Assembly (NCBI RefSeq): GCF_003633895.1
Contig: NZ_RBID01000016.1
Coordinates: 248,001 to 312,000, forward strand
Direction of reading: 5' to 3'
DNA: 64,000 nucleotides
Source of the DNA: Vogesella indigofera
Lineage (GTDB): Bacteria; Pseudomonadota; Gammaproteobacteria; Burkholderiales; Chromobacteriaceae
The position numbers were made by a program, and so were the translations under genes. Positions within the stretch are counted from its first letter, which is position 1, and each line of letters begins with the position of its first letter. The notes beneath the pieces were generated by a model. The model ran no database searches, was not told where the DNA came from, and worked only from the letters and a program-made list of their open reading frames with translations. This document shows positions 459-64,000 of this stretch, one piece after another.

Positions 459-492
459 CCAGGGTTGGCCGCAGCGTTGCGGCCAACCCTGG
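459..492. terminator. Hairpin built from an inverted pair of the GGTTGGCCGC repeat
   Basis: A perfect 15-bp stem (459-473 with 478-492) has a 4-base loop. Each arm carries the core GGTTGGCCGCA. It lies just after the stop of the first gene, on the convergent side of the next gene. There is no strong U-run, so termination is inferred from position and stem strength. Confidence 0.6.
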
Positions 493-501
493 GCACAACC
501 C

Positions 502-531
502 AAAAAACGCGCCATCCCCGGATGGCGCGTT
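502..531 (-). terminator. Rho-independent terminator of the helix-hairpin-helix gene
   Basis: Stem AACGCGCCATCC with GGATGGCGCGTT and a 2-base loop. Read on the minus strand it is followed by a run of six Us. It lies about 40 bp past the stop of the gene at 571-990. Confidence 0.8.
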
Positions 532-570
532 GTCGTTGGCGGATGGTGTACTGCGAGTGCCCGGACCGGC

Positions 571-990
571 TCAGTTGCCCTTGCCTTTGCCGCCACCGTT
601 ACCGCCGCCACCGCCGTTACCCCCGCGCTGGCTGCCGCCACTCTTGCCCTTGCTGCCGGGGCTGCCCAGATCAACGGTGCTGCTCTTGCTGGCCGGGATG
701 GCGGCCCGCACGCCGGGAATGGCCGGCGCAGTGCCGGAACGGGTGGTGACCGGCTTGCCGTTGATGGTCAGCGATGCGCGCACGCGGTTGAGATCGCCCT
801 GGGTGATGCCCTTGATCGCCAGCAGGTCACGGCTGCTGCTAAAGGTGGTGCTCAGCTGCGCGTCGACGATGCGCTGCGCATCGGCGGTGCTGAAACCGGC
901 GGCCACCAGCTCGTCGTAGCTGGCGTCGTTGATGTCCAGCGCCATGGCCGGCGCCGCCAGCAGGCTGAGCAGGATGATCAGTTGCTTCAT
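571..990 (-). CDS. Exported ComEA-like helix-hairpin-helix protein
   Basis: A 139-aa protein starting at ATG 990, behind a good ribosome site (GGGAGGAC). An 18-residue signal peptide ends A-M-A. It is followed by an HhH-type DNA-binding repeat of about 60 residues (DINDASYDELVAAGFS ... LLAIKGITQGDLNRVRASL), spaced like the N-A-T-x-x-E-L ... I-K-G-I pattern of ComEA. The last 45 residues are a Gly/Lys/Ser-rich low-complexity tail (GGNGGGGGNGGGKGKG), likely flexible and cationic. ComEA-type proteins bind incoming DNA in the periplasm during natural transformation. Here the role is inferred from the fold only; no other competence gene is nearby. It is flanked by its own terminator. Confidence 0.7.
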   Translation of the reverse strand: MKQLIILLSLLAAPAMALDINDASYDELVAAGFSTADAQRIVDAQLSTTFSSSRDLLAIKGITQGDLNRVRASLTINGKPVTTRSGTAPAIPGVRAAIPASKSSTVDLGSPGSKGKSGGSQRGGNGGGGGNGGGKGKGN

Positions 991-1073
991 GGTGTCCTCC
1001 CGGATAAGCGACAGTGCAGTATAGTTCGCGCCGCCGCGGGCGCCGGCCTTGTTGCGTCGGCGTGTCCGGCATG

Positions 1074-1103
1074 AAAAAACGCGCCATCGGTGATGGCGCG
1101 TTT
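1074..1103 (-). terminator. Rho-independent terminator of malate synthase G
   Basis: Stem AAACGCGCCATC with GATGGCGCGTTT and a 3-base loop, then six Us on the minus strand. It lies 24 bp past the glcB stop. Its stem sequence is nearly the same as that of the terminator at 502-531. Confidence 0.8.
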
Positions 1104-1126
1104 GCGGGGCGATGGGGCGGTGGCGC

Positions 1127-3286
1127 TTACTGCGCCTTGGCCACGAGACGCCAGGCGTGCAGCAGCGGCTCGGTGTAGCCGGACGGCTGCGCGCAGCCCT
1201 TGAACACCAGGTCGCAGGCGGCCTTGAAGGCAACGGATGTCTCGAAATTGCCGGCCATGTTCTGGTACAGCGGGTCGCCGGCGTTCTGCTGGTCCACCAC
1301 TGCCGCCATGCGCTTGAGCGTTTCCATCACCTGCGCCTCGCTGGTGATGCCGTGGCGCAGCCAGTTGGCAATGTGCTGGCTGGAGATGCGCAGCGTGGCA
1401 CGGTCTTCCATCAGGCCGACGTTGTGGATGTCCGGCACCTTGGAGCAGCCGACGCCCTGGTCGATCCAGCGCACCACGTAGCCGAGGATGCCCTGCGCGT
1501 TGTTGTCCAGCTCCTGCTGGATTTCGGTGGCGCTCCACTGAGGGTTGGCCGCAACCGGAATGGTCAGCAGCTCGTCCAGCACGTCGATTTGCTGGCCTTC
1601 CAGCCCTTGTTGAACCTGTTGCACGTTGACCTGGTGGTAGTGCAGCGCGTGCAGCACGGCGGCGGTGGGCGACGGCACCCAGGCGGTGTTGGCGCCGGCT
1701 TTCGGGTGGCCGATCTTCTGCTTCAGCATTTCTGCCATCAGGTCCGGCATCGCCCACATGCCCTTGCCGATCTGGGCGTGGCCGCGCAGGCCGCAATCGA
1801 GGCCGACCTGCACATTGCTGCGCTCGTAGGCGGTGATCCACTTGCTGGTCTTCATGTCGCCCTTGCGGATCATCGGGCCGGCTTCCATCGCGGTGTGCAT
1901 CTCGTCACCGGTACGGTCGAGGAAGCCGGTGTTGATGAAGGCGACGCGGTGGCGCGCGGCGGCGATGCAGGCCTTGAGGTTGACGCTGGTGCGGCGCTCC
2001 TCGTCCATGATGCCCAGCTTCACGGTGTACTGCGGCAGGCCGAGCAGGCTTTCCACCGCGCCGAACAGCTCGTTGGCGAACGCCACTTCGTCCGGGCCGT
2101 GCATCTTCGGCTTCACGATGTAGATGGAGCCGGCGCGCGAGTTGCCGCGGCGCTGCTGGTCGTGCAGCGCGATCAGGGTGGTGACCACCGCGTCCATGAT
2201 GCCTTCCGGAATCTCGCGGCCGTCGCCGTCGAGGATGGCCGGGTTGCTCATCAGGTGGCCGACGTTGCGGATGAACATCAGGCTGCGGCCGTGCAGGCTC
2301 AGCGTGTCGCCAGCCGGCGTCTGGTACTGGCGGTCGGCATTCAGGCGGCGGGTGATGGTTTTATCGCCCTTGCTGACTTCCTCGACCAGATCGCCCTTCA
2401 TCAGGCCCAGCCAGTTGCGATAAACGACCACCTTGTCGTCGGCATCGACGGCGGCGACGGAGTCTTCGCAGTCCATGATGGTGCTGATCGCGGCCTCCAT
2501 CACGATGTCCTTGACGCCGGCTGCGTCCTGCGCGCCGATGGCGCTGTTCTTGTCGATCTGGATTTCGAAGTGCAGGCCGTTCTGTTTCAGCAGGATGGCG
2601 CTCGGCGCGGCGGCGTCGCCGTTGAAGCCGATGAACTGGCCAGGCTGCTTCAGGCCGCTGCGGCTGCCGTCGTTCAGTTGTACCTGCAGCTGGCCGGCGA
2701 CCACGGTATAGGCGGTGGCGTCAAAGTGCGAGCCGTTCTCCAGCGTTGCCGCCTGGTCGAGGAAATCGCGACCGAAGGCGATCACCTTGCCGCCGCGTAC
2801 CGCGTTGTAGCCGCCGGCACGGCTGGCGCCGCCGTCTTCGCTGATGGCGTCGGTGCCGTACAGCGCGTCGTACAGGCTGCCCCAGCGCGCGTTGGCCGCG
2901 TTCAGCGCATAGCGCGCGTTCATCACCGGCACCACCAGCTGCGGGCCGGCCTGTTCCGCGATCTCGCTGTCGATGTTGCTGGTGCTGATCTGCGCGTCGG
3001 CCGGTACCGGTTTCAGGTAGCCGATGCCGGTGAGAAAGGCCTTGTAGCCGGCCATGTCGGCGATCGGGCCGGGATGGGCGCGGTGCCAGGCGTCGATCTC
3101 GCTTTGCAGGCGGTCGCGCTCGGCCAGCAGCGCGCGGTTCTTCGGCGCCAGCGTGTGCACCAGCGCATCAAAACCCTGCCAGAAGGCGGCGGCATCGACG
3201 CCGGTGCCGGGCAGCGCTTCCTGTTCGATGAAGTGGTAAAGGTTGGCCGCAACTTGCAGGCGGTGGCTCTGGATACGCGCAGTCAT
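1127..3286 (-). CDS. glcB: Malate synthase G
   Basis: A 719-aa protein, the usual length for malate synthase G (about 720 aa), and full length by its N- and C-terminal segments. It condenses glyoxylate with acetyl-CoA to malate in the cytosol. Family landmarks are present: [15 protein letters not shown] (about 268-282), FIRNVGHLM (about 335-345, containing the family's catalytic arginine), [13 protein letters not shown] (about 494-506) and [14 protein letters not shown] near 622, which should carry the catalytic aspartate. The start ATG at 3286 is preceded by AGAGA. The gene stands alone, with its own terminator and no isocitrate lyase beside it. A role in glycolate/glyoxylate use is therefore as likely as a linked glyoxylate shunt. 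Two copies of the GTTGGCCGC repeat lie inside it (near 1543 and 2891), and a third spans its 5' end (3238-3250). Confidence 0.95.
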
Positions 3287-3419: not shown

Positions 3420-4391
3420 CTACAGCCAGCCGGCGCGGCGGAAGCGGCGCCACAGCAGCACATCCAGCACCACCATGCTCAGCAGTGACAGCGGGTAGCC
3501 CAGCGGCGTGCGCAGCTCCGGCATGTAGTCGAAGTTCATGCCGTAGATGCCGGCGATCATGGTCGGCACCGCGAACAGCGCGGCGTAGGCGGCCAGCTTC
3601 TTGCTGATGCTGCTTTCGTCCAGCGAGATCATCGCGATATTGACCTGGATGGCGGTGGCCAGCAGGTCGCGCTGCGATTCCACGGTATGCAGGATGCGCG
3701 ACAAGTGATCGTCCACGTCACGGAAATATTCCGGCAGCTCGTGGCACGGTGGCGGCACGCGGCCACCGTACAGCCGCGCAGTGGCCTCGTGCAGCGGCGC
3801 GGCGGCGTGGTGGACGGTGATCAATTTGCGCTTGAGCGCGTACAGCGCCGCGATATTGCGCCGCGCCGAGCCACCCTTGAGAAACAGCCGGCCTTCGATG
3901 CTGTCCAGCTCGTCTTCCAGCTGGTGGATCACGGCCAGGTAGCGGTCGACCACCGCATCCATCAGCGCGTACAGCACGAAGCCGCTGCCGTGCGCCAGCA
4001 GGTGCGGCTCGCGCTCGCAGCGTGCGCGCACGTCCTGGAAGCCCTTGCGCGTCTGGTTGCGGATCGACAGCAGGAAGTTGCGGCCAACGAACAGGTCGAC
4101 CTCGCCGACGTGGATGCCGTTCTCGCGGTCCGGCTCCAGCGTCTTCATCACCAGAAACAGGGTGTCGCCGTATTCGTCCAGCTTCGGGCGCTGGTGGCCG
4201 TGCAGCGCGTCCTCCACCGCCAGCGGGTGCAGCGCGAACTGGTGGCCGAAGTGGCTGATTTCGTCCGGGGTCGGGTCTTGCAGCGCGACCCACACCAGGC
4301 AGTCCGGCTTGGCCAGGTGTTCGGGAATGGTGTTTACCGGGATGTCGCCGAGTTTTTGGCCGTTGTGGTAGGCAACGCAGTTGATCAGCAT
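3420..4391 (-). CDS. corA: CorA-type magnesium/cobalt transporter
   Basis: A 323-aa protein. I place the start at the ATG at 4391 (MLINCVAYHNGQKLG), which matches the usual CorA N-terminus, rather than at an upstream in-frame start that adds a low-complexity basic tail. A large soluble N-terminal domain (about 1-255) precedes two C-terminal membrane helices joined by the signature YGMNFDYMPEL (the GMN motif at about 282). The short basic cytoplasmic end is RRFRRAGWL. CorA pentamers carry Mg2+ (also Co2+, Ni2+) across the inner membrane. The protein has the periplasmic-loop signature and normal length, so it should be functional. It is not obviously in an operon, and the divergent ABC gene starts 141 bp away. 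Confidence 0.92.
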   Translation of the reverse strand: MLINCVAYHNGQKLGDIPVNTIPEHLAKPDCLVWVALQDPTPDEISHFGHQFALHPLAVEDALHGHQRPKLDEYGDTLFLVMKTLEPDRENGIHVGEVDLFVGRNFLLSIRNQTRKGFQDVRARCEREPHLLAHGSGFVLYALMDAVVDRYLAVIHQLEDELDSIEGRLFLKGGSARRNIAALYALKRKLITVHHAAAPLHEATARLYGGRVPPPCHELPEYFRDVDDHLSRILHTVESQRDLLATAIQVNIAMISLDESSISKKLAAYAALFAVPTMIAGIYGMNFDYMPELRTPLGYPLSLLSMVVLDVLLWRRFRRAGWL

Positions 4392-4532: not shown

Positions 4533-6296
4533 GTGGCTAGCCCAGGTTTATTGCAACGTCTTACCCCGCTGTCCGGGTTGTGGCCGTTTTTACGGCCGTA
4601 TCGCGGCCGTGCACTGCTGGCCGCGCTGGCGCTGCTGGTGGCGGCCACGGCCACGCTGCTGCTGCCGGTGGCGTTCCGCTACCTGATCGACCACGCCTTC
4701 GTGCAGCGCGAGGCGGTCGACGGCTACTTTCTGGCGCTGTTGGCGCTGGCGCTGGTACTGGCGCTGTTCACCGCGCTGCGTTTCTATCTGGTGTCGTGGC
4801 TGGGTGAGCGCGTCACCGCCGACGTGCGCAGCGCGGTGTACCGCCACGTGATCCGCATGAGTCCGGAATACTTCGAGACGCTGCAAACCGGCGAGGTGCT
4901 GTCGCGGCTGACCACCGACACCACGCTGGTGCAGACCGTGATCGGTACCAGCCTGTCGATGGGGCTGCGCAACATCCTGCTGATGCTGGGCGGGCTGGTG
5001 ATGCTGGCGGTGACCAGCCCCAGCCTGACCGGCTACATCCTGGTGACGCTGTTGCTGGTGATCCTGCCTATCCTGATCTTCGGCCGCCGCGTGCGCGCCT
5101 TGTCGCGCTCCAGCCAGGACCGCATCGCCGATTCCAGCGCCATGGCCGGCGAGACGCTGAACGCGGTGCAGACGGTGCAGGCCTTCGCGCAGGAGGCGCG
5201 CGAAACCGTGCGTTTCGACGGCTCGGTGGCGCTCAGCTTCGACACCGCGCTGGCGCGCATCCGCGCCCGTTCGCAGCTGACGGCGGTGGTGATCATGCTG
5301 GTGTTCGGCGCGGTGGTGTTCGTGCTGTGGCTGGGCGCACGCGCGGTGCTGGCCGGCGAGATGTCCAGCGGCCTCTTGGCGCAGTTCATCCTCTACGCGG
5401 TGGTGACCGCCGGCGCCATCGGCGCGGTGGCCGAGGTGTGGGGTGACCTGCAGCGTGCCGCCGGCGCCACCGAGCGGCTGATGGCACTGCTGGCACAGCG
5501 CTCGCCGGTACAGCCGCCGGCGCAGCCGCTGCCCTTGCCGGCAACGGGCGACGGCCTTCAATTGCAAGACGTCGGCTTCGCCTACCCGTCACGCCCCGGG
5601 CAGCCGTCGCTGTCCGGCATCACCCTCGCCATCCGCCCCGGCGAACAGGTGGCGCTGGTCGGGCCGTCCGGCGCCGGCAAGACCACGCTGTTCCAGCTGC
5701 TGCTGCGCTTTTACGATCCGCAGGTTGGCCGCATCACGCTGAACGGCACCGATATCGCGCAGCTGAATCCGCAGGCGCTGCGCCGCCACATCGGCATCGT
5801 GCTGCAGGACACGGTGATTTTCGGCGCCAGCGCGCTGGAGAACATCCGCTACGGCCGGCCCGACGCGACGGACGAGGAGGTGTTCGCCGCCGCCCGCGCC
5901 GCCGCCGCGCACGAATTCATCGAGCGCCTGCCGGAGGGCTATCACAGCTATCTGGGCGAGCGCGGCGTGCGCCTGTCCGGCGGCCAGCGCCAGCGCATCG
6001 CCATTGCGCGCGCCATCCTGAAAAACCCGCCCATCCTGCTGCTGGACGAGGCCACCAGCGCGCTGGACGCCGAATCGGAACAGCTGGTGCAGCAGGCGCT
6101 GGAGCGCGCCGCCGCCGGGCGCACCACCATCGTCATCGCCCACCGCCTGGCCACCGTGAAGCAGGCCGACCGCATCGTGGTGCTGGAGCAGGGCCGCATC
6201 GTGGCGGAGGGCACCCACGCCGAGCTGCTGCAGCGCTCGCCGCTGTACGCCAGGCTGGCCGCCTTGCAGTTCGGGCTGGCCGAGGTGGCGGCCTGA
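4533..6296 (+). CDS. ABC half-transporter (MsbA/multidrug-type permease-ATPase)
   Basis: A protein of about 587 aa with a fused membrane and ATPase domain. I favour GTG at 4533 because GGAG sits 7 bases upstream; an in-frame TTG at 4518 would add five residues. Six membrane helices fill about residues 20-300. The ATPase follows with Walker A GPSGAGKTTL (about 378), Q-loop, signature LSGGQRQRIAIARA (about 481), Walker B ILLLDEATSALD (about 500) and H-loop VIAHRL. Half-transporters of this type work as homodimers in the inner membrane, exporting lipids or drugs. The substrate cannot be told from sequence, and no lpxK or other lipid A gene is adjacent. One GGTTGGCCGCA lies inside (near 5723) and one just past the stop (6299-6311). 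Confidence 0.88.
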   Translation: MASPGLLQRLTPLSGLWPFLRPYRGRALLAALALLVAATATLLLPVAFRYLIDHAFVQREAVDGYFLALLALALVLALFTALRFYLVSWLGERVTADVRSAVYRHVIRMSPEYFETLQTGEVLSRLTTDTTLVQTVIGTSLSMGLRNILLMLGGLVMLAVTSPSLTGYILVTLLLVILPILIFGRRVRALSRSSQDRIADSSAMAGETLNAVQTVQAFAQEARETVRFDGSVALSFDTALARIRARSQLTAVVIMLVFGAVVFVLWLGARAVLAGEMSSGLLAQFILYAVVTAGAIGAVAEVWGDLQRAAGATERLMALLAQRSPVQPPAQPLPLPATGDGLQLQDVGFAYPSRPGQPSLSGITLAIRPGEQVALVGPSGAGKTTLFQLLLRFYDPQVGRITLNGTDIAQLNPQALRRHIGIVLQDTVIFGASALENIRYGRPDATDEEVFAAARAAAAHEFIERLPEGYHSYLGERGVRLSGGQRQRIAIARAILKNPPILLLDEATSALDAESEQLVQQALERAAAGRTTIVIAHRLATVKQADRIVVLEQGRIVAEGTHAELLQRSPLYARLAALQFGLAEVAA

Positions 6297-6298
6297 GC

Positions 6299-6311
6299 TG
6301 CGGCCAACCTT
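6299..6311 (-). repeat. Single copy of the GGTTGGCCGC uptake-like repeat
   Basis: TGCGGCCAACCTT, the minus-strand form of the 13-mer, starts 3 bp after the stop of the ABC transporter gene. It is unpaired, so it is not a hairpin. Confidence 0.8.
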
Positions 6312-7561: not shown

Positions 7562-7595
7562 AAAAGGTTGGCCGCATCGCTGCGGCCAACCTTTT
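7562..7595. terminator. Bidirectional terminator made of paired uptake-like repeats
   Basis: Stem AAAAGGTTGGCCGCA with TGCGGCCAACCTTTT and a 4-base loop, with T-runs on either strand. It lies between the convergent ndpA and regulator genes. Each arm is one copy of the dispersed 13-mer. Confidence 0.85.
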
Positions 7596-10538: not shown

Positions 10539-10571
10539 GCAAGGTTGGCCGCAGGCTGCGGCCAACCTTGC
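10539..10571. terminator. Paired uptake-like repeats forming a hairpin
   Basis: Stem GCAAGGTTGGCCGCA with TGCGGCCAACCTTGC and a 3-base loop, 8 bp after the binding-protein stop. There is no U-run. It may attenuate rather than stop transcription into the dehydrogenase gene 64 bp further on. Confidence 0.6.
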
Positions 10572-11931: not shown

Positions 11932-11967
11932 GCGGCCAACCTTGCACAAGGTTGGCCGCAGATTTTT
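11931..11967. terminator. Second hairpin from paired uptake-like repeats
   Basis: TGCGGCCAACCTTG and CAAGGTTGGCCGCA face each other across 2 bases and are followed on the plus strand by GATTTTTT. It directly adjoins the hairpin at 11894, giving two tandem hairpins between convergent genes. Confidence 0.7.
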
Positions 11968-14894: not shown

Positions 14895-14907
14895 AAGGTT
14901 GGCCGCA
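14895..14907 (+). repeat. Single uptake-like repeat in the glyA leader
   Basis: AAGGTTGGCCGCA lies between the riboswitch and the glyA start, unpaired. Confidence 0.8.
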
Positions 14908-28606: not shown

Positions 28607-28619
28607 TGCGGCCAACCTT
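28607..28619 (-). repeat. Single uptake-like repeat upstream of dbpA
   Basis: TGCGGCCAACCTT in the 241-bp spacer between dbpA and the HtrA gene. Its partner (28777) is too far away to form a tight hairpin. Confidence 0.8.
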
Positions 28620-28776: not shown

Positions 28777-28789
28777 AAGGTTGGCCGCA
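28777..28789 (+). repeat. Single uptake-like repeat after the HtrA gene
   Basis: AAGGTTGGCCGCA ends 4 bp before the last codon of the protease gene. Confidence 0.8.
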
Positions 28790-41546: not shown

Positions 41547-41590
41547 AAGGTTGGCCGCAAGCCTGTTTGGCTTGCGGCCAACCTTTTTTC
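41547..41590 (+). terminator. clpB terminator built from paired uptake-like repeats
   Basis: A perfect 17-bp stem (41547-41563 with 41569-41585), loop TGTTT, then TTTTT. Both arms contain AAGGTTGGCCGCAAG. It separates convergent clpB and the nucleotidase gene. The clearest example of a repeat pair acting as an intrinsic terminator. Confidence 0.9.
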
Positions 41591-43347: not shown

Positions 43348-45033
<1,686 letters not shown>

Positions 45034-46286: not shown

Positions 46287-46329
46287 AAGGTTGGCCGCAA
46301 TGGCGTGTGCTGTTGCGGCCAAGCTTTTG
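46287..46329. terminator. Terminator made of paired uptake-like repeats
   Basis: AAGGTTGGCCGCAA (46287) pairs with TTGCGGCCAAGCTT (46313) with one mismatch and a 12-base loop, followed by TTG. It lies between the convergent ppk2 and flavoprotein genes. Confidence 0.7.
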
Positions 46330-47415: not shown

Positions 47416-47426
47416 CGTTGGCCGCA
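47416..47426 (+). repeat. Uptake-like repeat between the flavoprotein and HD-GYP-like genes
   Basis: CGTTGGCCGCA, preceded closely by TGCGGCCACC, an imperfect opposite copy (47407). Confidence 0.65.
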
Positions 47427-53405: not shown

Positions 53406-54200
53406 CTAGTCGGCGATCAGCAGCGGCACGCCACTGTGCTGCAGGCTGGCCAGCTTGTGCGGCTCGGCGTCGGCCTCGATCACCAGCCGGCCGATGTCGC
53501 GCATGGCGGCCACCGCGAACGGCGACGCGGTGCCGAGCTTCTCGTTGGTGACGGCGAGCACGATCTGGTTGCACTGGCTGACCAGCACGCGCTTGAACGC
53601 CGCTTCCTCGGCGATGGTGGTGCCGACGCCCAGTTCGATGTCCACCGAACAGGTGCCGAGAAAGCATACGTCGGGGCGCATGTCCTGCACCGCCAGCGTC
53701 GGGATGCTGCCCAGTGTGCCGCCGACGCGGTGGTCCATGCGCCCGCCGATCACCAGCACCTCGAACTGGCTGCGGCCGAACAGTACCGCGGCGATCGGGA
53801 TCGAGTTGGTGGCCACCGTCAGCGGCATGTCCGGCAGCGCGCGCGCGATTTCCAGATTGGTGGTGCCGGCATCGAGGAACACGAACTGTCCCGGCTGCAG
53901 CAGGCGTACCGCCGCTGCGGCCAACCTTGCCTTGCGCGCCACGTTTTCGTGGCTGCGCTCGATAAAGCTGCCGGTATTGGGCGTCATCGCGATGGCGCCG
54001 CCATACACGCGCTGGCAGATGCCGGTGGCGGCCAGTTCGCGCAGGTCGCGGCGGATGGAGTCCTCGGACACGCCCAGCGTCTGCGCCAGTTCGGCGGCCA
54101 GCACGCGGCCTTCCTGTTGCAGGCGCTGGCGGATGTACTGGTGACGGTCGCTGGGCAGGGCGATCGCCGGCGGACGTTCTTTGCGTGCTTCGGTGGTCAT
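53406..54200 (-). CDS. DeoR-family transcriptional regulator
   Basis: A 264-aa protein from ATG 54200 (MTTEARKERPP). The N-terminal DeoR HTH runs RHQYIRQRLQQEGRVLAAEL, then AQTLGVSEDSIRRDLRELAA. The sugar-phosphate-sensing domain has FLDAGTTNLEIARAL and NSIPIAAVL, typical of repressors that bind phosphorylated sugars. It is head-to-head with a HAD phosphatase gene across a 174-bp spacer that holds three spaced TGCAC-type sites, so it probably represses both itself and the phosphatase gene. One GCGGCCAACCTTGCC repeat is inside (53916). Confidence 0.9.
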   Translation of the reverse strand: MTTEARKERPPAIALPSDRHQYIRQRLQQEGRVLAAELAQTLGVSEDSIRRDLRELAATGICQRVYGGAIAMTPNTGSFIERSHENVARKARLAAAAVRLLQPGQFVFLDAGTTNLEIARALPDMPLTVATNSIPIAAVLFGRSQFEVLVIGGRMDHRVGGTLGSIPTLAVQDMRPDVCFLGTCSVDIELGVGTTIAEEAAFKRVLVSQCNQIVLAVTNEKLGTASPFAVAAMRDIGRLVIEADAEPHKLASLQHSGVPLLIAD

Positions 54201-54374: not shown

Positions 54375-55169
54375 ATGTTCCGCGCCATTGCCACCGATCT
54401 TGACGGCACCCTGCTGGATGCCGAATCCCGCATTACCCCGCGCAGCGTCGCCGCCCTGCAGCGCGCCCACGCTGCCGGCTGCCGGCTGATCATCGCTACC
54501 GGCCGCCACTACCGCGACGTGCAGTTCCTGCTGGACGGCATCGAGCTGCCGGTCAGCGTGATCAGCTCAAACGGCGCACGGGTACACGCGGCGGACGGTA
54601 CGCCGCTGGCTGCGGCCAACCTGGCGCCGGCGCTGGTGCAAAAGCTGGTGCAGCCGGCGCTGGTGCGCGACGTGGAGCTGGCGCTGTATCTGGATGACCG
54701 CAAGCTGGCCTGCCGCTACACCGGCTCGCTCAACGGCTATCTCGACCGCGCCGAGGTGCACGCCAGCCTGGCGGACTACCATGGCCGCGACGTGGCCAAG
54801 ATCATCTATTGCGGCGATCCAGCGCAGCTGCGACTGGTGGAGCAGGACATCCGCTACCGCTTCGACGGCCAGCTGGCGCTGACCTATTCGCAGGACTGCT
54901 ATCTGGAAGTGATGGCGCCGGGGGTGAGCAAGGGCCAGGCGCTGCAGCAGCTGCTGGCCGGCATGGGCATCGCGGCGCAGGATTGTGCGGCGTTTGGCGA
55001 TGCGATGAACGACGTCGAGATGCTGCAGCTGGTCGGCCACCCGCACCTGATGGCCAATGCCAGCCAGCATCTGCAAGAGCAGGTGCCGGACGGGCAGCGC
55101 ATCGGCCACCACGCCGAGTCGGCGGTGGCGGCATTGCTGGAGAGCCGCTTCGCCGCCTGCGGCGTCTGA
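54375..55169 (+). CDS. Cof-type HAD-IIB phosphatase
   Basis: A 264-aa protein. The start is ATG 54375 (MFRAIATDLDGTLLDAESRI), with GGGGGAG upstream. Motif I is DLDGTLLD (8-15), motif II the Ser/Thr in SSNGARV, and the C-terminal acidic motif reads AFGDAMNDVEML. Such enzymes dephosphorylate sugar phosphates, nucleotides or cofactor intermediates. Pairing with a DeoR-type regulator suggests a phosphosugar. It ends at a TGA that abuts MITE copy 7. One GCGGCCAACC repeat is inside (54612). Confidence 0.9.
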   Translation: MFRAIATDLDGTLLDAESRITPRSVAALQRAHAAGCRLIIATGRHYRDVQFLLDGIELPVSVISSNGARVHAADGTPLAAANLAPALVQKLVQPALVRDVELALYLDDRKLACRYTGSLNGYLDRAEVHASLADYHGRDVAKIIYCGDPAQLRLVEQDIRYRFDGQLALTYSQDCYLEVMAPGVSKGQALQQLLAGMGIAAQDCAAFGDAMNDVEMLQLVGHPHLMANASQHLQEQVPDGQRIGHHAESAVAALLESRFAACGV

Positions 55170-57029: not shown

Positions 57030-57043
57030 AAGGTTGGCCGCAA
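57030..57043 (+). repeat. Single uptake-like repeat upstream of chemoreceptor 3
   Basis: AAGGTTGGCCGCAA next to the pta terminator in the 235-bp spacer. Confidence 0.8.
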
Positions 57044-57106: not shown

Positions 57107-59194
57107 TTAGCGGCTGAATTGGTCGGCCTGGATCGCGGTCAGCGCGATGGTGTAAACGATGTCGTCCACCAGTGCGCCGCGCGACAGGTCGTTCACCGGC
57201 TTGCGCAGGCCCTGCAGCATCGGCCCGACCGACACCACGCCGGCGGAGCGCTGCACCGCCTTGTAGGTGGTGTTGCCGGTGTTGAGGTCGGGGAACACGA
57301 ATACGGTGGCGCGGCCGGCCACCGGGCTGTCCGGCGCCTTCTGGCGGCCGACCGACTCTACCGACGCCGCGTCGTACTGCATCGGGCCGTCGATCAGCAG
57401 GTCCGGGCGTTTCTCGCGCGCGATGCGGGTGGCCTCGCGCACTTTTTCCACGTCGTCGCCGCTGCCGGAGGAGCCGGTGGAGTAGGAGATCATCGCTACC
57501 CGTGGCGGAATGCCGAAGGCGGCGGCGGAGTCCGCGCTCTGGATGGCGATATCTGCCAGCTCTTCCGCGCTTGGGTCCGGGTTGACCGCGCAGTCACCGT
57601 ACACATAGACCTGGTCCGGCATCAGCATGAAGAACACGCTGGAAACCAGCTTGGCTTCCGGCGCGGTCTTGATCAGCTGCAGCGCCGGGCGGATGGTGTT
57701 GGCGGTGGTGTGGATGGCGCCGGACACCAGGCCGTCGACCTCGTTCAGCGCCAGCATCATGGTGCCCATCACCACGTTGTCTTCCAGCTGCTGCTCCGCC
57801 ATCGGCGCGTTGAGGCCCTTGCTCTTGCGCAGCTCCACCATCGGCGGCACGTAGCGGGCGCGGACCTCGTTGGGGTCGACGATCTCGATGCCGGCGGGCA
57901 GGGTGATGCCCTGCGCCTCGGCCACCTGCAGGATCTCCTGGCGTTCGCCCAGCAGCACGCAGCGGGCGATGCCCTTCTCGTGGCAGATGGCGGCGGCGCG
58001 CACCGTGCGCGGCTCGTTGCCTTCCGGCAGCACGATGCGCTTGGCGGCGCGGCGCGCCTTTTCCATCAGCTGGTAGCGGAACGCCGGCGGCGACAGCCGT
58101 TTCTCGTGGTGCTCGCCGATGCGCTGGCGCAGCTGGCTGGTGCTGATGCGCTCGGCGACGAAATCGACCACCCGCTCCATGCGCTCCATGTCGTCGGCCG
58201 GCACCTGCCGGCTCATGGTCGAGATCAGGGTCGCGGTTTCCAGGGTGTTGGTGTCGATCGATAGCACCGGCAGGCCGCTGGTGAACGCCTTGTGGCACAG
58301 CTGTGCCACGCGCGGATCCGGTGCCGCGTCGCAGGTCAGCAGCAGGCCGGCCAGCGGCACGCCGTTCATGGTCGCCATCGCGGTGGCGAGCACGATGTCC
58401 TCGCGGTCGCCGGGGGTGATGATCAGCGCGCCGGGCTTGAGTAGTTCGACGATGTGCGGCACCGAGCGTGCCATCACCGAGATGCTGCGCACGCGGCGGC
58501 GCGTCAGCTGGCCGGCGTGCAGCAACTTGGCTTTCAGGTAGTTGGCCACGTCCAGCGTGCGCGGGGCCAGCAGCTCCGGCTCGAACGGGATGCCGCCGAG
58601 GCAGGCAATGCGCCGGCTCTGGATCAGGCGGCTGGATTCGGTGATCTCTGCGGCCAACGTGGCCGGGTTCTGCCCCGGACGCAGGCGGTTGAGGATGTAG
58701 CCGGCCACCTGCCGCGGCTGGCCGCCGAAGGCCTGGATGGTGATCTCCAGCTGCTCCGCCAGCGTGTGGCTGGGCAGCTGGTCGGCGGCGCCGACCAGGA
58801 TTACTTCCGCCTGCAGCGTGCGCGCGATCTTGCTGTTGATGTAGGTGGTGAACACCCGTTGCTGGTCCTGCACCAGGCCTTCCACGATGACCACGTCGAC
58901 GCCGGCGGAGGCGCGCTGGAACAGGTGCACCACCTCTTCCATCAGCTGGTCGAGCTGGCCCTGGCTCAGCAGGTGCTCGGCGTGGTCCATCGGTAGCGGC
59001 TCCGGCGCGTTGAGGCGGCACAGCTCGCGGGCGAAGTGGGTGGAGCGTTCCGGCTCGCTGGTGTCGCTGCCCTGGGCGATCGGCTTGACGAAGCCGACCT
59101 TGAGGCCATCCTGTTCCAGCGCGCGGATCAGGCCCAGCGAGACCGAGGTCAGACCGGCGTCAACGCCGATCGGGGCGATCAGAAAAGTATGCAT
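57107..59194 (-). CDS. pta: Phosphate acetyltransferase (long form)
   Basis: A 695-aa protein, long-form Pta like E. coli (714 aa). The P-loop-like N-terminal domain (IAPIGVDAGLTSVSLGLIRA, 7-26), the DRTGG domain (about 215-325) and the C-terminal catalytic PTA domain (about 370-690; VLPEGNEPRTVRAA, MISYSTGSSGSGDDVEKV) are in order. It converts acetyl-CoA and phosphate to acetyl phosphate. The start ATG 59194 has GAGGGA upstream and lies 10 bp after ackA, so the two form an operon. One GCGGCCAACG repeat is inside (58651). Confidence 0.96.
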   Translation of the reverse strand: MHTFLIAPIGVDAGLTSVSLGLIRALEQDGLKVGFVKPIAQGSDTSEPERSTHFARELCRLNAPEPLPMDHAEHLLSQGQLDQLMEEVVHLFQRASAGVDVVIVEGLVQDQQRVFTTYINSKIARTLQAEVILVGAADQLPSHTLAEQLEITIQAFGGQPRQVAGYILNRLRPGQNPATLAAEITESSRLIQSRRIACLGGIPFEPELLAPRTLDVANYLKAKLLHAGQLTRRRVRSISVMARSVPHIVELLKPGALIITPGDREDIVLATAMATMNGVPLAGLLLTCDAAPDPRVAQLCHKAFTSGLPVLSIDTNTLETATLISTMSRQVPADDMERMERVVDFVAERISTSQLRQRIGEHHEKRLSPPAFRYQLMEKARRAAKRIVLPEGNEPRTVRAAAICHEKGIARCVLLGERQEILQVAEAQGITLPAGIEIVDPNEVRARYVPPMVELRKSKGLNAPMAEQQLEDNVVMGTMMLALNEVDGLVSGAIHTTANTIRPALQLIKTAPEAKLVSSVFFMLMPDQVYVYGDCAVNPDPSAEELADIAIQSADSAAAFGIPPRVAMISYSTGSSGSGDDVEKVREATRIAREKRPDLLIDGPMQYDAASVESVGRQKAPDSPVAGRATVFVFPDLNTGNTTYKAVQRSAGVVSVGPMLQGLRKPVNDLSRGALVDDIVYTIALTAIQADQFSR

Positions 59195-59204: not shown

Positions 59205-60398
59205 TCAGGCCGCCGGCTCGCACAGTGCGGCGGTGTCCAGCGCGATCATCAGTTCTTCATTGGTGTTGATGACCAGCGCCGGGGTGCTGCCGGCGCGGGT
59301 GATGCGGCCGGCTTTGCCGCGGAAGGCCGCATCGTTGGCCGCCGGGTCGAGCGCGAGGCCGAGGAAGCCGAGCAGCTTGATCACCTTGGCGCGCAGCAGT
59401 GGCGAGTTTTCGCCGATGCCGCCGGTGAACAGCAGCGCGTCGAGGCGGCCCAGCGCCACCGTCATCGAGGCGATCTGCTTGGCGAGGCGGTAGGCGAACA
59501 CTTCCAGCGCGATCTGCGCGCCGGTATGGCCGGCGGCGGCGGCGTCTTCCAGTTCACGGCAGTCGCTGGACAGCTCGGACAGGCCGAGCAGGCCGGACTG
59601 CTTGTTGAGGATGTCGGAAACACCCTGGATGTCGGTGTTCAGTTCTGTGGCGAGGTAGCCGAAGATGCCCGGGTCGATGTCGCCGCAGCGGGTGCCCATC
59701 ACTAGGCCTTCCAGCGGGGTCAGGCCCATGCTGGTGTCGACGCTCTTGCCGTTCAGTACCGCGGCCACCGAGGCGCCGTTGCCGAGGTGGGCGCAGACGA
59801 AGGCGGATTCCGCCAGCGGTTTGCCCAGAATCGCCGCGGCTTCGGCGGTGACGTAGCGGTGGCTGGTGCCGTGGAAGCCGTAGCGGCGCACGCCGTGCTC
59901 GCGGTACAGCGCCATCGGCACCGCGTACAGGTAGGCCTGCTCGGGCATGCTCTGGTGGAAGGCGGTGTCGAACACCGCCACCTGCGGCAGGTGCGGGAAG
60001 CAGGCCTGTGCGGTGCGGATGCCCTGCAGGTGCGCCGGGTTGTGTAGCGGCGCGAGGCGAGCGCAGTCCTCGATGGCAGCAATCACGCTGTCGTCGATCA
60101 GAGTGGACTGCTTGAAGGTCTCGCCGCCGTGTACCACACGGTGGCCGATGGCGATCACGCTGCCGGTCAGCTCGCGCTCGTCAAAATAGGACAGGATCGC
60201 TTTCATGGCGCCGGCGTGATCGCCTTGCGCCAGGGTCAGTTCAACTTTCTTGCCGTCCTGCTTGAAACTGATGCAGGCGTCGGCGAGGCCGAGCTTTTCG
60301 GCAATGCCGGTCACGGTGGTGCGCTGGCTGGCGGCATCGATCAGCGCAAATTTCAGCGACGAGCTGCCGCAGTTGATGACAAGTGTGTGGTTGGTCAT
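59205..60398 (-). CDS. ackA: Acetate kinase
   Basis: A 397-aa protein, normal length. The phosphate-binding N-terminus MTNHTLVINCGSSSLKFALI is followed by GHRVVHGGE, the segment RRYGFHGTSHRYV and the adenosine-site region GGIGENSPLLR. It makes acetate and ATP from acetyl phosphate, the second step after Pta, supporting overflow or fermentative energy gain and acetate uptake. First gene of the pair; its upstream spacer is 487 bp long and contains a palindromic site shared with the divergent Rieske gene. Confidence 0.97.
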   Translation of the reverse strand: MTNHTLVINCGSSSLKFALIDAASQRTTVTGIAEKLGLADACISFKQDGKKVELTLAQGDHAGAMKAILSYFDERELTGSVIAIGHRVVHGGETFKQSTLIDDSVIAAIEDCARLAPLHNPAHLQGIRTAQACFPHLPQVAVFDTAFHQSMPEQAYLYAVPMALYREHGVRRYGFHGTSHRYVTAEAAAILGKPLAESAFVCAHLGNGASVAAVLNGKSVDTSMGLTPLEGLVMGTRCGDIDPGIFGYLATELNTDIQGVSDILNKQSGLLGLSELSSDCRELEDAAAAGHTGAQIALEVFAYRLAKQIASMTVALGRLDALLFTGGIGENSPLLRAKVIKLLGFLGLALDPAANDAAFRGKAGRITRAGSTPALVINTNEELMIALDTAALCEPAA

Positions 60399-60885: not shown

Positions 60886-61995
60886 ATGTCTGATCTGGCT
60901 TCGTCCCAGTTGCTGAAAGCTTCTGCTGCGCAGTTGCCTGTCTTTACCTACTTTGATCCGGCGTACTACGCGCTGGAACAACAAGTCCTGTTCGCCAATG
61001 CCCCGCAGTATTACGGCCACGAACTGATGGTGCCGAACGCCGGCGACTATCACACTCTGGACTGGCTCGGCCACGGCAAGATGCTGAAAAATGTCGATGG
61101 CGACATCAAGCTGATCTCCAACGTCTGCCGCCACCGCCAGGCACTGATCTACAAGGGGCGCGGCACCGGCAACCACATGGTGTGCAACCTGCACGGCTGG
61201 ACCTACGACAACGGCGGCCAGTTGATCGGCGCGCCGCACTTCCCGGAAACGCCGTGCCTGAATCTGAACCAGACCGAGCTGACCCGCTGGCAGGGCCTGC
61301 TGTTTGATGCCAAGCGCAACGTTGGCCGCGACCTGGAACAGCTTGGCGTCGCCAAGCACATGACTTTCGAAAACTACGGTTATCACAAGTCGCTGACCAC
61401 CGAGTACGACTTCAACTGGAAGACCTTCATCGAAGTCTACTCCGAGGACTACCACGTCGATCCGTTCCATCCAGGCCTCGGCAATTTCGTCGATTGCGCC
61501 GACCTGAAGTGGGAGTGGGGCGATCACTACCACGTGCAGACCGTGGGCGTGAAGAACGCTCTGGCCCGCTCCGGCAGCAAGGTGTACGGCAAGTGGCACG
61601 AGGAAGTCATCAAGCGTTACGCCGACCAGCAGCCGGAATTCGGCGCCATCTGGCTGACCTACTACCCGAACATCATGGTGGAGTGGTATCCACACGTGCT
61701 GGTGATCAGCGTGGTGATTCCGCGCGGCCCGGAAAAGTGCACGGTGATCACCGAGTTCTACTACCCGGAAGACATTCTGTGGTTCGAGCCGGAGTTCATC
61801 GAGGCGGAACAGGCGGCCTATATGGAAACCGCGGTCGAGGACGACGAGATCTGCCTGCGCATGCACGAGGGCCGCAAGGCGCTGTGGCTGCGCGGCGAGA
61901 GCGAGGTCGGGCCGTACCAGTCGCCGACCGAAGACGGGATGCAGCACTTCCACGAGTTCTATCGTCGGCAGATGGGTGAACATCTGGCTGGCTAA
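60886..61995 (+). CDS. Rieske non-heme iron oxygenase, alpha subunit
   Basis: A 369-aa protein from ATG 60886, with GGAGG 10 bases upstream. The Rieske [2Fe-2S] ligands are in VCRHRQAL (about 80-87) and VCNLHGWTYDNGG (about 100-112), i.e. CxH...CxxH. The mononuclear iron site is in FIEVYSEDYHVDPFHPG (His at about 191 and 196). The C-terminal SRPBCC catalytic domain is complete. Such oxygenases hydroxylate or demethylate aromatic or quaternary-ammonium compounds. No reductase, ferredoxin or small subunit gene is adjacent, so the electron donor lies elsewhere. Substrate unknown. A GTTGGCCGCGA repeat is inside (61320). Confidence 0.88.
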   Translation: MSDLASSQLLKASAAQLPVFTYFDPAYYALEQQVLFANAPQYYGHELMVPNAGDYHTLDWLGHGKMLKNVDGDIKLISNVCRHRQALIYKGRGTGNHMVCNLHGWTYDNGGQLIGAPHFPETPCLNLNQTELTRWQGLLFDAKRNVGRDLEQLGVAKHMTFENYGYHKSLTTEYDFNWKTFIEVYSEDYHVDPFHPGLGNFVDCADLKWEWGDHYHVQTVGVKNALARSGSKVYGKWHEEVIKRYADQQPEFGAIWLTYYPNIMVEWYPHVLVISVVIPRGPEKCTVITEFYYPEDILWFEPEFIEAEQAAYMETAVEDDEICLRMHEGRKALWLRGESEVGPYQSPTEDGMQHFHEFYRRQMGEHLAG

Positions 61996-62019
61996 GACCG
62001 TGTTTTGTGCGGCACAATA

Positions 62020-62048
62020 AAAGGGCGCGGATTTCCGCGCCTTTTTTT
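62020..62048 (+). terminator. Rho-independent terminator of the Rieske gene
   Basis: Stem GGCGCGG/CCGCGCC with loop ATTT, followed by seven Ts, about 25 bp after the stop. Confidence 0.87.
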
Positions 62049-62063
62049 GTCTGCCGGGCCATC

Positions 62064-62588
62064 ATGCCATTTGTATTAAGCGTACTGTTTTCCGTGTTGT
62101 TCTCCGGGTTGGCCACTGCGGCGACCTATCGCAATCCCTACCTGGGTGTCACCATCAATGTGCCGGCGGCGTGGCAGGTACGGCCGCATAGCGACGAGAT
62201 GCTGCGCATCGTGCCGCCGCGGCAGGAAGACCGCGAACGCGGCGGCGTGCAGGTGCAGGTCAGCCGCCAGCTGTTGCGCGGCAAGGAGCCACTGAGCCGC
62301 CTGGCGGCGCGCTATCGCCGGGCCGACGACACGCGCGAGCCGGCGCAGACGGTGCGCCTCGACCGGCTACGCGGCCGGCTGGTGCTGTCCTATCGCGAAG
62401 GGCTGTACGTGCAGAACGGGCTGTGGATCGTCAGCCAGCAGCTGGTGGTGTGGCAGCAGCAGGGCAATGGCCGCTACATCAAGGCGCACTGCAGTGCCAA
62501 TGCCGCGGAATATGCGCGCTACCGGCGCGTGTTCGCCGATATCTGTCTCGGTCTCGCGGTGGCGCGGAAGGCGGAGGCGGGCGCATGA
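62064..62588 (+). CDS. Hypothetical exported protein
   Basis: A 174-aa protein from ATG 62064 (MPFVLSVLFSVLFSGLATAA); an upstream ATG would place the Rieske terminator inside the gene. A signal peptide ends near ATA-A. The mature part starts TYRNPYLGVTINVPAAWQVR, like small exported proteins with a PsbP/DUF1795-type fold, but I cannot assign it firmly. Its stop overlaps the start of the next gene (ATGA), so it is co-translated with the transporters. Function unknown. Confidence 0.75.
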   Translation: MPFVLSVLFSVLFSGLATAATYRNPYLGVTINVPAAWQVRPHSDEMLRIVPPRQEDRERGGVQVQVSRQLLRGKEPLSRLAARYRRADDTREPAQTVRLDRLRGRLVLSYREGLYVQNGLWIVSQQLVVWQQQGNGRYIKAHCSANAAEYARYRRVFADICLGLAVARKAEAGA

Positions 62589-63424
62589 GTCGTCTCGGTT
62601 CCGGCTGGATGGTGGTGGCGGCGCTGTGCTTCGCGCTGATGAGCCTGTTTGCGGCGCAGGGGTCGAGCACGCTGCCGGCGTTCGAGGTGCTGTTCTATCG
62701 CACCTTCATCGGTTTGCTGGTGTTGCTGCCGCTGATGTGGCGACGCGGCGAATCCTTGCGCAGTCCGCACTGGGGCGCCCATGCGCGGCGCAGCCTGATC
62801 GGCTACCTGTCGATGGCGATGCTGTTCTATGCGCTGAGCCGGCTGCCGCTGGCGGCGGCGGTGACCCTCAATTACACCTCTTCCTTGTCCTTTGCCCTCT
62901 GTTGCGTGCTGTTGCGCCGCGAGCGGCTGCCGCCGGCGGTGTGGTTTGCGCTGTCGCTGGGTTTTGTCGGCATCGCCTGCATGTTGCGGCCAACGTTTGA
63001 CGCCGGGCAGTGGTTTGCCGGGCTGATGGGGCTGGGTTCCGGCCTTGGCGCCGGGCTGGCGCTGTTCCATGTGCGCGAGCTGGGCGAGTTGGGCGAGCGG
63101 CCGTCGGTCACCGTGTTCTGGCTGTTCTTCCTGTCGTCGCTGTTCGGCCTGCTGGTGGTGCTGTTCAATGGCGGCTTTCATGTGCTGAACGGGATGCAGC
63201 TGGCGCAAATGCTCGCCGTCGGGCTGATGGGGCTGGCCGGGCAGCTGGCGATGACGCGTGCCTACAAGGAAGGGCGCAAGTTCGTGGTGTCCAGCCTGGC
63301 CTACCTGACGGTGGCGTTCTCGGCGCTGATGGGCTTGTTCCTGCACCAGCAGCAACTGCCCTTGTTGTCCTGGCTGGGCATGACGCTGATCATCGGTAGC
63401 GGCATTCTGGCGGCGCGTCGCTAG
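62585..63424 (+). CDS. EamA/DMT-family transporter, first of a tandem pair
   Basis: A 279-aa protein with ten membrane helices in two EamA repeats. ATG 62585 overlaps the previous stop by 4 bp. Typical blocks are ALCFALMSLFAAQGSSTLPA, EVLFYRTFIGLLVLLPL, LPLAAAVTLNYTSSL. DMT-family carriers export metabolites or drugs, or take up nucleosides; the substrate is unknown. The next gene starts right after its TAG and is a paralogue, suggesting duplication. The repeat GCGGCCAACG (62987) encodes LRPTFD here. Confidence 0.87.
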   Translation: MSRLGSGWMVVAALCFALMSLFAAQGSSTLPAFEVLFYRTFIGLLVLLPLMWRRGESLRSPHWGAHARRSLIGYLSMAMLFYALSRLPLAAAVTLNYTSSLSFALCCVLLRRERLPPAVWFALSLGFVGIACMLRPTFDAGQWFAGLMGLGSGLGAGLALFHVRELGELGERPSVTVFWLFFLSSLFGLLVVLFNGGFHVLNGMQLAQMLAVGLMGLAGQLAMTRAYKEGRKFVVSSLAYLTVAFSALMGLFLHQQQLPLLSWLGMTLIIGSGILAARR

Positions 63425-64000
63425 ATGGCCGGCGCCTTGTGGATGGTGCTGGCCGCGGTCAGCTTTGGCCTGATGGGTGTGTTCGTCAAGCTCGGTGCGG
63501 CGTCGCTGGACACTGTGGCGCTGGTGTTCTGGCGCACGCTGTTCGCGGTGTTGCTGCTGGGTACGGTGGCGTTGCTGCGGCGGCAGCGCTTCGCCACGCC
63601 ACAGCTGGGGCGCCACCTCAAGCGCGGCCTGATCGGCTACACCGCGCTGCTGGCCTACTTCTATGCCATCGGTCATCTGCCGCTGTCGACGGCGGTAACA
63701 CTCAACTACACCTCGCCGATGTTCCTGGCGCTGCTGTCGGTGCTGCTGCTGAAAGAGAAGCTGTCGCGGCACGCGCTGCTGGCACTGCTGCTCGGCTTTG
63801 TCGGGGTCGCGCTGCTGTTGCGGCCAACCTTTGACGGCGCCGCGTGGCAGGCCGGGCTGCTGGGGCTGGGCTCCGGTCTGCTCGCCGGCTGGTCCTACCT
63901 GCACGTGCGCGAGCTGGGGCAGGCCGGCGAGGCGGAGTGGCGCACGGTGTTCTACTTTGCGCTGATCTCGACGCTCGGCGGCGGCCTGTTGCTGCTGGGA
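63425..64000 (+). CDS. EamA/DMT-family transporter, second of a tandem pair (3' truncated by window)
   Basis: It begins at ATG 63425, directly after the preceding TAG, and stays open to the window end (192 codons). The sequence parallels the first copy block by block: MVLAAVSFGLMGVFVKLG, LVFWRTLFAVLLLG, LPLSTAVTLNYTSPM, LLRPTFDGAAW. At the LRPTFD position it carries the uptake-like repeat again (63820), at the equivalent place to its paralogue. Substrate unknown; possibly works as a pair with the first protein. Confidence 0.87.
   Translation, partial: MAGALWMVLAAVSFGLMGVFVKLGAASLDTVALVFWRTLFAVLLLGTVALLRRQRFATPQLGRHLKRGLIGYTALLAYFYAIGHLPLSTAVTLNYTSPMFLALLSVLLLKEKLSRHALLALLLGFVGVALLLRPTFDGAAWQAGLLGLGSGLLAGWSYLHVRELGQAGEAEWRTVFYFALISTLGGGLLLLG

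Follow-up and report, generated by a model that had tools for sequence, protein, structure and literature searches.

A candidate DNA uptake word in Vogesella indigofera and its dialects in other Chromobacteriaceae

A 64,000-base stretch of the Vogesella indigofera genome, referred to here as the window (positions C5:248001-312000 of assembly G000, which comprises 3,618,773 bases in 20 contigs), is dotted on both strands with the 9-base word GTTGGCCGC, often in the form of the 12-mer AAGGTTGGCCGC, which raises the question of what such a word might be for. The original prediction, made from the letters of the window, was a distinct uptake-type signal in this lineage. The genome displays a clear excess of the word, its strand symmetry, its placement in genes and at gene ends, its conservation at orthologous sites, its dialects in related genera, its absence from a genomic island, and the presence of ComP-like and ComEC genes; taken together, these sequence features favor the prediction. 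The word is very probably a DNA uptake sequence (DUS) of the Neisseria type, with a CCG core where the published dialects have CTG, and most likely would represent a functional uptake word; the members of this family that were examined earlier reportedly had no obvious one.

The window contains 59 exact copies of GTTGGCCGC, 31 on the forward and 28 on the reverse strand, and 26 copies of AAGGTTGGCCGC, which agrees with the roughly 60 and two dozen copies first estimated by eye. In 100 dinucleotide shuffles of the window, the 9-mer was found 2.26 times on average (maximum of 7) and the 12-mer 0.04 times (maximum of 1), and a third-order Markov model predicts 2.6 and 0.02 copies, respectively, so that the claimed excess over chance stands. 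At every word length between 9 and 12, the seven top-ranking over-represented words listed overlap it without exception. The originally described span, 463-63830, takes in the first and last copies. The word is less dense outside the window: a 400-kb stretch of contig C1 contains 240 nine-mers, or 1 per 1.7 kb, compared to the 1 per 1.1 kb of the window. In the complete genome, AAGGTTGGCCGC is present in 1050 copies (535 and 515 on the two strands) and the reversed control word in none (0 and 0), so that the over-representation extends genome-wide. An artifact of base composition or codon usage can be discarded, because the reversed word has no copies and the word itself occurs in intergenic DNA as well as in every one of the six frame/orientation classes. 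All 13 examined members of the genus Vogesella (group g1) carry AAGGTTGGCCGC, five of them (G000, G001, and G003 to G005) in 965-1050 copies and the other eight in 485-635.

The preferred form, derived from 104 kb of the same genome, is (C)AAGGTTGGCCGCA, with the consensus (C)AAG GTTGGCCGC A. Beyond this 13- to 14-mer, all flanking positions stay at or below 0.2 bits, and therefore no longer repeat contains the word; the conserved surroundings that would mark an interspersed repeat were not seen, and a single family of repeated elements does not explain the word.

Whole-genome counts in 61 Chromobacteriaceae genomes, assigned to groups g1 to g10, indicate that a word common to the family exists in at least three dialects, of which the window has one. 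The CA dialect, AGGTTGGCCGCA, is found in 680-1095 copies in all 13 g1 genomes and in 0-15 copies in the other 48. The AA dialect, AGGTTGGCCGAA, is present in 68-610 copies in eight genomes, namely, G022, Crenobacter oryzisoli (G048), strain JH1-16 (G049), Gulbenkiania mobilis (G050), G057, Pseudogulbenkiania ferrooxidans 2002 (G058), G059, and P. subflava (G060); the counts are low in G048 and G059 (144 and 68, respectively), while the two genomes of g5, the C. luteus group (C. luteus itself being G047), have 22 and 11 copies, and the remaining 51 genomes have 0-6. The AG dialect, AGGTTGGCCGAG, is typical of this C. luteus group, with 731 and 428 copies in the two g5 genomes, 27 in G048, and no more than 9 elsewhere. 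Thus, 23 of the 61 genomes carry a dialect, and 38, Chromobacterium among them, carry none of the three. All three dialects have CCG at positions +6 to +8; position +10 is A in the AA and CA dialects and G in the AG dialect. Related words were also recovered de novo from 37 to 60 kb per genus in g5, g6, g7, g9, and g10. The pattern GGTTGGCCGMA, written to include the AA and CA dialects but not the AG dialect, was counted in 399 genomes drawn from the order. Of the 13 family members in this sample, 8 have 635-1520 copies, whereas the 386 genomes from outside the family have at most 30 (control, 27). No comparable word was detected in 220 kb of G014, 180 kb of G041, 100 kb of G054, or 40 kb of G051, all from wordless genera. 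Of the other groups, g3 holds Chromobacterium, as its ComP-like proteins are identical to those of named records, and g2 may correspond to Aquitalea; Paludibacterium yongneupense was included as G056.

Some other words turned up in the course of this survey. In g2 and g3, CTGGCCGA is mildly over-represented (L145-L158; 113 copies versus 41 expected and 106 versus 40), which may reflect codon usage, perhaps codon pairs. The word TTTACCCTGA looked over-represented in 100 kb of g4 chosen around pilin genes; it was rejected, as the pilin motif GFTL(I/T)E accounts for 11 of the 16 copies. Tandem CCCTACTCCC repeats are found in the g4 genome G045 (L063:850-936).

A ComP-like minor pilin, which the original prediction had suggested looking for, is encoded at G000:C11:94166-94585, outside the window. 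Matches to the Pfam family PF16732 (ComP_DUS) were dropped as evidence by themselves, being unspecific: pilins of all 61 genomes, including the wordless ones, match it, up to four in each. A profile built from ten ComP-like proteins was used instead. The V. indigofera protein (142 amino acids) matches Neisseria subflava ComP (2nba) over residues 40-137, the globular domain, with an E value of 7.9e-10; the four type IV pilin chains that rank ahead of 2nba are matched in the N-terminal part only. Its gene is adjoined by a FimT-like gene, as judged by eye. The other PF16732 pilin of this genome has no ComP match, and a C5 pilin encoded 47 kb upstream of the window was rejected as the receptor because it matches PilE and no ComP. 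In the g5 member G046, the best Protein Data Bank (PDB) matches are three ComP chains, 2nba (E value, 2e-13), 2m3k, and 5hz7. The same three chains, in the order 5hz7, 2nba, and 2m3k, rank first to third among 350,542 PDB chains (E values, 7e-5 to 2e-3) in a search with the structure predicted for the P. ferrooxidans protein (pLDDT 79, pTM 0.65), followed by a Shewanella pilin (3e-3) and Pseudomonas PilE (8e-3). Near-full-length matches to the profile were found in 57 of the 61 genomes, the exceptions being the four g4 genomes. Orthology is clear for most of them and weaker in g8, where several proteins have no WPxLP motif. Four g2 genomes (G015, G017, G019, and G020) have a second match (E values, 3e-33 to 6e-35) that equals in score the only match of some g1 genomes and exceeds the g8 matches, so that profile scores alone do not define orthology; these second matches in wordless genomes perhaps represent a duplicated receptor. 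The genome also encodes ComEC (PF03772; E value, 3.1e-55).

Several further ComP-like genes deserve mention. Two of them lie side by side in the g9 genome G057 (L073; G057:C3:1518672-1519630), and the one in the wordless genome G051 (G051:C1:465054-465458) has one in-frame TGA and is perhaps decaying. Among the matches listed, ComP-like proteins are also found in Aquabacterium, Pseudoalteromonas, and Thiobacillus records (L106, L108, L109, L112, and L113); L106, L108, and L113 contain none of the tested words.

Conservation of the word at orthologous sites was evaluated within the genus by aligning the window and two 20-kb loci with ten relatives, using GC-matched 10-mers as controls. In the four close relatives (G001, G003, G004, and G005; 91-95% identity), 66 of 73 intergenic 10-mer sites were intact, compared to 38-48% of the controls, as were 91 of 108 genic sites, compared to 50-63%. 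Few sites could be aligned with the six more distant relatives; of these, 6 of 11 genic sites (controls, 16-27%) and the single intergenic one were intact. The word is thus conserved above background, as expected of an uptake-type signal. These data bear on the possibility that the word is a former uptake word, whose system worked in an ancestor and whose copies now only decay slowly. Such a history could account for the ComP-like genes retained by some relatives that have no word and for the low copy numbers of their own dialect in G048 and G059. Nevertheless, it appears very unlikely, given the level of site conservation in Vogesella and the small number of near-matches: in a 504-kb sample (the window, the 400 kb of C1, and the two loci), the 10-mer GTTGGCCGCA has 264 exact copies (2 in the reversed form) and only 149 with one mismatch, of which chance would supply some 56, the number of one-mismatch copies of the reversed word.

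The placement of the word was assessed with a simple codon-usage gene model built for this purpose; it misses genes in low-GC stretches, so the noncoding share on C1 is overstated and some assignments of flanking genes are unsure. Of 327 nine-mers, 199 lie within predicted genes and 128 outside, which fits the original description of copies both within and between genes. The genic copies occupy all six frame/orientation classes, as had been claimed for different frames, albeit unevenly (83, 50, and 41 in three classes and 25 across the other three), and are translated mostly in AAN, VGR, and LAA contexts. The 12-mer is more often intergenic: 81 of 131 copies are outside predicted genes, including 15 of the 26 in the window, where only about 12% of the bases are noncoding. 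In 34 cases, two neighboring words lie within 45 bp of each other, and in 30 of these both copies are outside predicted genes. The flanking genes are convergent in 16 pairs, codirectional in 18, and divergent in none, although divergent gaps make up 16% of the intergenic bases. The six pairs in the window (Table 1) form hairpins with folding free energies of -20 to -36 kcal/mol (z scores, -3.9 to -7.6). Inverted pairs had been placed in terminators from the outset: their position at gene ends and their strong hairpins stand, whereas termination itself is suggested by sequence. The two words of a pair abut without a gap in 10 of the 34 cases, and the full palindrome TGCGGCCAACGTTGGCCGCA has 10 copies in 504 kb; this palindromic double word, seen at 38703-38720 of the window and elsewhere, is a second preferred arrangement besides spaced pairs.

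This intergenic enrichment and these hairpins are what would be expected if the word mainly served to build intrinsic terminators, or constituted a family of intergenic palindromes resembling repetitive extragenic palindromes (REP), with no role in uptake. That explanation is likewise very unlikely: most copies are single, the majority of nine-mers are genic and conserved above controls, and a terminator stem requires no fixed 12-base word, let alone one whose prevailing spelling varies by genus.

Table 1. Copies of the word and inverted pairs in the window (dG, folding free energy in kcal/mol; z, z score)
Feature	Position	Strand	Remark
Inverted pair (+ then -), hairpin at gene end	464..487		dG -35.5, z -5.7
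Inverted pair, terminator-like hairpin with T run	7567..7590		dG -27.8, z -7.6
Inverted pair, hairpin at gene end	10544..10566		dG -31.4, z -6.6
Inverted pair (- then +), hairpin then T6	11932..11959		dG -24.9, z -5.0
Abutting inverted pair within perfect palindrome TGCGGCCAACGTTGGCCGCA	38703..38720		dG -20.4, z -3.9; 1/200 shuffles folds as well
Inverted pair, terminator-like hairpin with T6	41550..41582		dG -36.4, z -6.8
12-mer AAGGTTGGCCGC	3239..3250	+	exact match
12-mer AAGGTTGGCCGC	6300..6311	-	exact match
12-mer AAGGTTGGCCGC	7564..7575	+	exact match
12-mer AAGGTTGGCCGC	7582..7593	-	exact match
12-mer AAGGTTGGCCGC	10541..10552	+	exact match
12-mer AAGGTTGGCCGC	10558..10569	-	exact match
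12-mer AAGGTTGGCCGC	11932..11943	-	exact match
12-mer AAGGTTGGCCGC	11948..11959	+	exact match
12-mer AAGGTTGGCCGC	14373..14384	-	exact match
12-mer AAGGTTGGCCGC	14895..14906	+	exact match
12-mer AAGGTTGGCCGC	15900..15911	+	exact match
12-mer AAGGTTGGCCGC	21373..21384	+	exact match
12-mer AAGGTTGGCCGC	28608..28619	-	exact match
12-mer AAGGTTGGCCGC	28777..28788	+	exact match
12-mer AAGGTTGGCCGC	33778..33789	+	exact match
12-mer AAGGTTGGCCGC	37440..37451	-	exact match
12-mer AAGGTTGGCCGC	41547..41558	+	exact match
12-mer AAGGTTGGCCGC	41574..41585	-	exact match
12-mer AAGGTTGGCCGC	46287..46298	+	exact match
12-mer AAGGTTGGCCGC	49449..49460	+	exact match
12-mer AAGGTTGGCCGC	50841..50852	+	exact match
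12-mer AAGGTTGGCCGC	51210..51221	-	exact match
12-mer AAGGTTGGCCGC	52492..52503	+	exact match
12-mer AAGGTTGGCCGC	53917..53928	-	exact match
12-mer AAGGTTGGCCGC	57030..57041	+	exact match
12-mer AAGGTTGGCCGC	63820..63831	-	exact match
9-mer core GTTGGCCGC	464..472	+	exact match
9-mer core GTTGGCCGC	479..487	-	exact match
9-mer core GTTGGCCGC	1544..1552	+	exact match
9-mer core GTTGGCCGC	2891..2899	+	exact match
9-mer core GTTGGCCGC	4080..4088	-	exact match
9-mer core GTTGGCCGC	5724..5732	+	exact match
9-mer core GTTGGCCGC	11011..11019	-	exact match
9-mer core GTTGGCCGC	11795..11803	-	exact match
9-mer core GTTGGCCGC	16489..16497	-	exact match
9-mer core GTTGGCCGC	19499..19507	-	exact match
9-mer core GTTGGCCGC	19906..19914	+	exact match
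9-mer core GTTGGCCGC	23767..23775	-	exact match
9-mer core GTTGGCCGC	25085..25093	+	exact match
9-mer core GTTGGCCGC	26691..26699	-	exact match
9-mer core GTTGGCCGC	29754..29762	+	exact match
9-mer core GTTGGCCGC	30620..30628	-	exact match
9-mer core GTTGGCCGC	31749..31757	-	exact match
9-mer core GTTGGCCGC	31845..31853	+	exact match
9-mer core GTTGGCCGC	34345..34353	+	exact match
9-mer core GTTGGCCGC	38703..38711	-	exact match
9-mer core GTTGGCCGC	38712..38720	+	exact match
9-mer core GTTGGCCGC	42361..42369	-	exact match
9-mer core GTTGGCCGC	42811..42819	+	exact match
9-mer core GTTGGCCGC	43675..43683	-	exact match
9-mer core GTTGGCCGC	47417..47425	+	exact match
9-mer core GTTGGCCGC	47577..47585	+	exact match
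9-mer core GTTGGCCGC	52306..52314	-	exact match
9-mer core GTTGGCCGC	52431..52439	+	exact match
9-mer core GTTGGCCGC	54612..54620	-	exact match
9-mer core GTTGGCCGC	58650..58658	-	exact match
9-mer core GTTGGCCGC	59334..59342	+	exact match
9-mer core GTTGGCCGC	61321..61329	+	exact match
9-mer core GTTGGCCGC	62986..62994	-	exact match

The word is short, over-represented, and genome-wide, and it is missing from an island, C1:367342-393542, the longest word-free stretch in the 400 kb of C1 (26.2 kb; GC content of 0.55, compared to 0.635 for the whole stretch); these traits would suit a polar motif of chromosome maintenance, such as Chi (RecBCD) or an FtsK signal of the KOPS type. Along a replichore, motifs of this kind favor one strand. 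The 400 kb of C1, whose eight 50-kb blocks all have a positive GC skew, carry 122 copies of the word on one strand and 118 on the other; such symmetry therefore speaks against a polar motif, for which gene-end pairs and genus dialects would also be unexpected, and leaves this explanation extremely improbable. Equally remote is a methylation or restriction-modification site over-represented for some other reason: the word does contain GGCC, a common methylase target, but its preferred unit is asymmetric and 12-13 bases long, its outer bases differ between genera, and restriction sites are usually avoided rather than enriched.

A DUS-type uptake word fits better with what is known of such systems. 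Like the DUS of Neisseriaceae, whose receptor is ComP (PMC3630211, PMC3868556), the words described here are found in hundreds to about a thousand copies on both strands, in genes and in gene-end pairs, with dialects that follow the genera and a ComP-like gene. In the 12-mer register, AGGTTGGCCGAA agrees with AG-mucDUS and AG-simDUS in 9 of 12 positions, a level that a random 12-mer, compared on both strands and with shifts of at most 3, would attain with at least one of the eight dialects in ∼0.009 of cases; the CA and AG dialects agree in 8 of 12 positions (chance of 0.06-0.07). The likeness is thus modest. The abutting palindromic pairs resemble the overlapping dyads described in Simonsiella (PMC3630211). 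CTG is invariant at positions +6 to +8 in all eight published dialects (PMC3630211), in contrast to the CCG found here; AGGTTGGCCGAA keeps the C at +6 and the G at +8 and has C at +7. With this core and an agreement of 9 of 12 at best, the word indeed differs from the known DUS dialects, as was claimed. It also belongs to another family, is stop-free in every frame (a property shared by only king3DUS among the published dialects), and in its AG dialect ends in G at +10.

Pasteurellaceae uptake signal sequences (USS; AAGTGCGGT) are comparable in the kind of function and in their genome pattern. The TGCGG in the reverse complement of the CA dialect is a chance likeness: the AA and AG dialects, with the reverse complements TTCGGCCAACCT and CTCGGCCAACCT, have no GCGG core, which sets these words apart from USS. 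In Legionella, the DNA-binding minor pilin is FimT, which is not known to have an uptake word; the FimT-like gene next to the ComP-like gene of V. indigofera is a point of likeness. The receptor candidate in Pasteurellaceae is the pilin PpdA/ComN (PMC12616744), unlike the ComP-like pilin considered here.

P. ferrooxidans 2002, which has 468 copies of AGGTTGGCCGAA and a ComP-like gene, is, by its strain number and after renaming, presumably the strain 2002 surveyed earlier for DUS. Frye et al. (2013) reported that strain 2002 had no obvious DUS, and the passage on “... violaceum” states that ComP was not identified by BLAST in that genome; Table S1D of the article lists over-represented 10-mers of those genomes and may include GTTGGCCGAA (PMC3630211). 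Among the papers listed on uptake sequences in Chromobacteriaceae, Vogesella, Pseudogulbenkiania, Crenobacter, or Neisseriales and on the word itself, with subscription papers mostly not covered, there was no other report of it as an uptake word, and by a term search these genera are not mentioned in a 2025 article (PMC12061091).

A plausible mechanism would start with the ComP-like minor pilin, which, as part of a type IV pilus, may bind DNA carrying (A)AGGTTGGCCGCA. Pilus retraction would pull the bound DNA inward, ComEC would hand it on to the cytoplasm, and recombination of the favored, kin-derived DNA could build up the number of words and renew lost ones wherever the sequence tolerates them, both within genes and at gene ends; at the latter, inverted pairs may double as terminators. 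Binding, uptake preference, recombination drive, and termination are all steps that we infer from the genomic patterns. Several observations weigh against assigning this function to the word. Among the papers listed, those naming both Vogesella and natural transformation look unrelated. The CCG core departs from the otherwise invariant CTG. ComP-like genes are present in 34 of the 38 wordless genomes, and having the receptor is therefore not enough to foretell the word. The fold search gave an E value of <0.001 for its top match alone, with query-normalized TM-scores of 0.43-0.59. Finally, ComEC is weak evidence, because PF03772 also matches in 10 of 14 control genomes.

The ComP-like proteins offer a lead as to how the word might be read. 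In an alignment of 56 rows from 55 genomes (G038 and G039 were left out), columns were sought in which a residue is present in >80% of the word-bearing rows and <30% of the wordless ones, and five columns passed. The lysine of the GxYK/GxFK motif is found in 21 of 24 word-bearing rows (the exceptions being G022, which has Thr, and G057 with its second copy) and in none of the 32 wordless rows; it is also present in Neisseria sequences (SFK, RFK). The Asp of the NTDxG motif is found in 22 of 24 and 5 of 32 rows, respectively. This association is a lead and no test, because the rows have a common ancestry and the five columns were selected out of a large number.

In a tree of 29 ClpB sequences, a single gene that leaves the deep branches open, word-bearing branches surround the wordless g2 and g3: G057 (80% complete, 7% contamination) branches outside g2 and g3 (support, 99/97), and G022 is the sister of the other g2 rows (100/99). 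The deep order of the ComP tree, in which long branches come together, is uncertain. Given that G057 and G022 share the AA word with g6, g7, and g10, it is simpler to assume that Chromobacterium and most of g2 lost the word than that it was gained repeatedly. DUS could then predate Neisseriaceae: the ancestor of the family would have used AGGTTGGCCGAA with a ComP receptor, both families sharing this origin, with the core rewritten between CTG and CCG and the word lost at least twice (in Chromobacterium and in most of g2), ComP being kept but changed at the lysine shared by most word-bearing genera and Neisseria. We regard the chances for and against this scenario as even.

If the word does serve in uptake, Chromobacteriaceae would become the third family with uptake words, with three dialects and a different core. 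They would provide natural comparison pairs, i.e., related ComP receptors with the word AA, CA, or AG and ComP-like proteins without any word, so that the way ComP reads the word, and the way a genome-wide dialect changes or is lost, would become testable in environmental bacteria.

The word-free stretch C1:367342-393542 encodes an insertion sequence transposase and TnsB-like and TniQ-like proteins, all above the Pfam cutoff, and a TnsA-like protein below it; it is a Tn7-like island that also encodes a metallo-β-lactamase (MBL)-fold protein and a 1683-amino-acid protein. The next three word-free gaps on C1 are 8.6-11.2 kb long, with a GC content of 0.56-0.58. Within the island, G000:C1:371632-379323 (L183) encodes a 2563-amino-acid protein with a DnaG-type zinc ribbon and a Toprim domain, a reverse transcriptase domain that scores below the Pfam cutoff, and a C terminus that looks nitrilase-like by eye; it is possibly a defense-associated reverse transcriptase.

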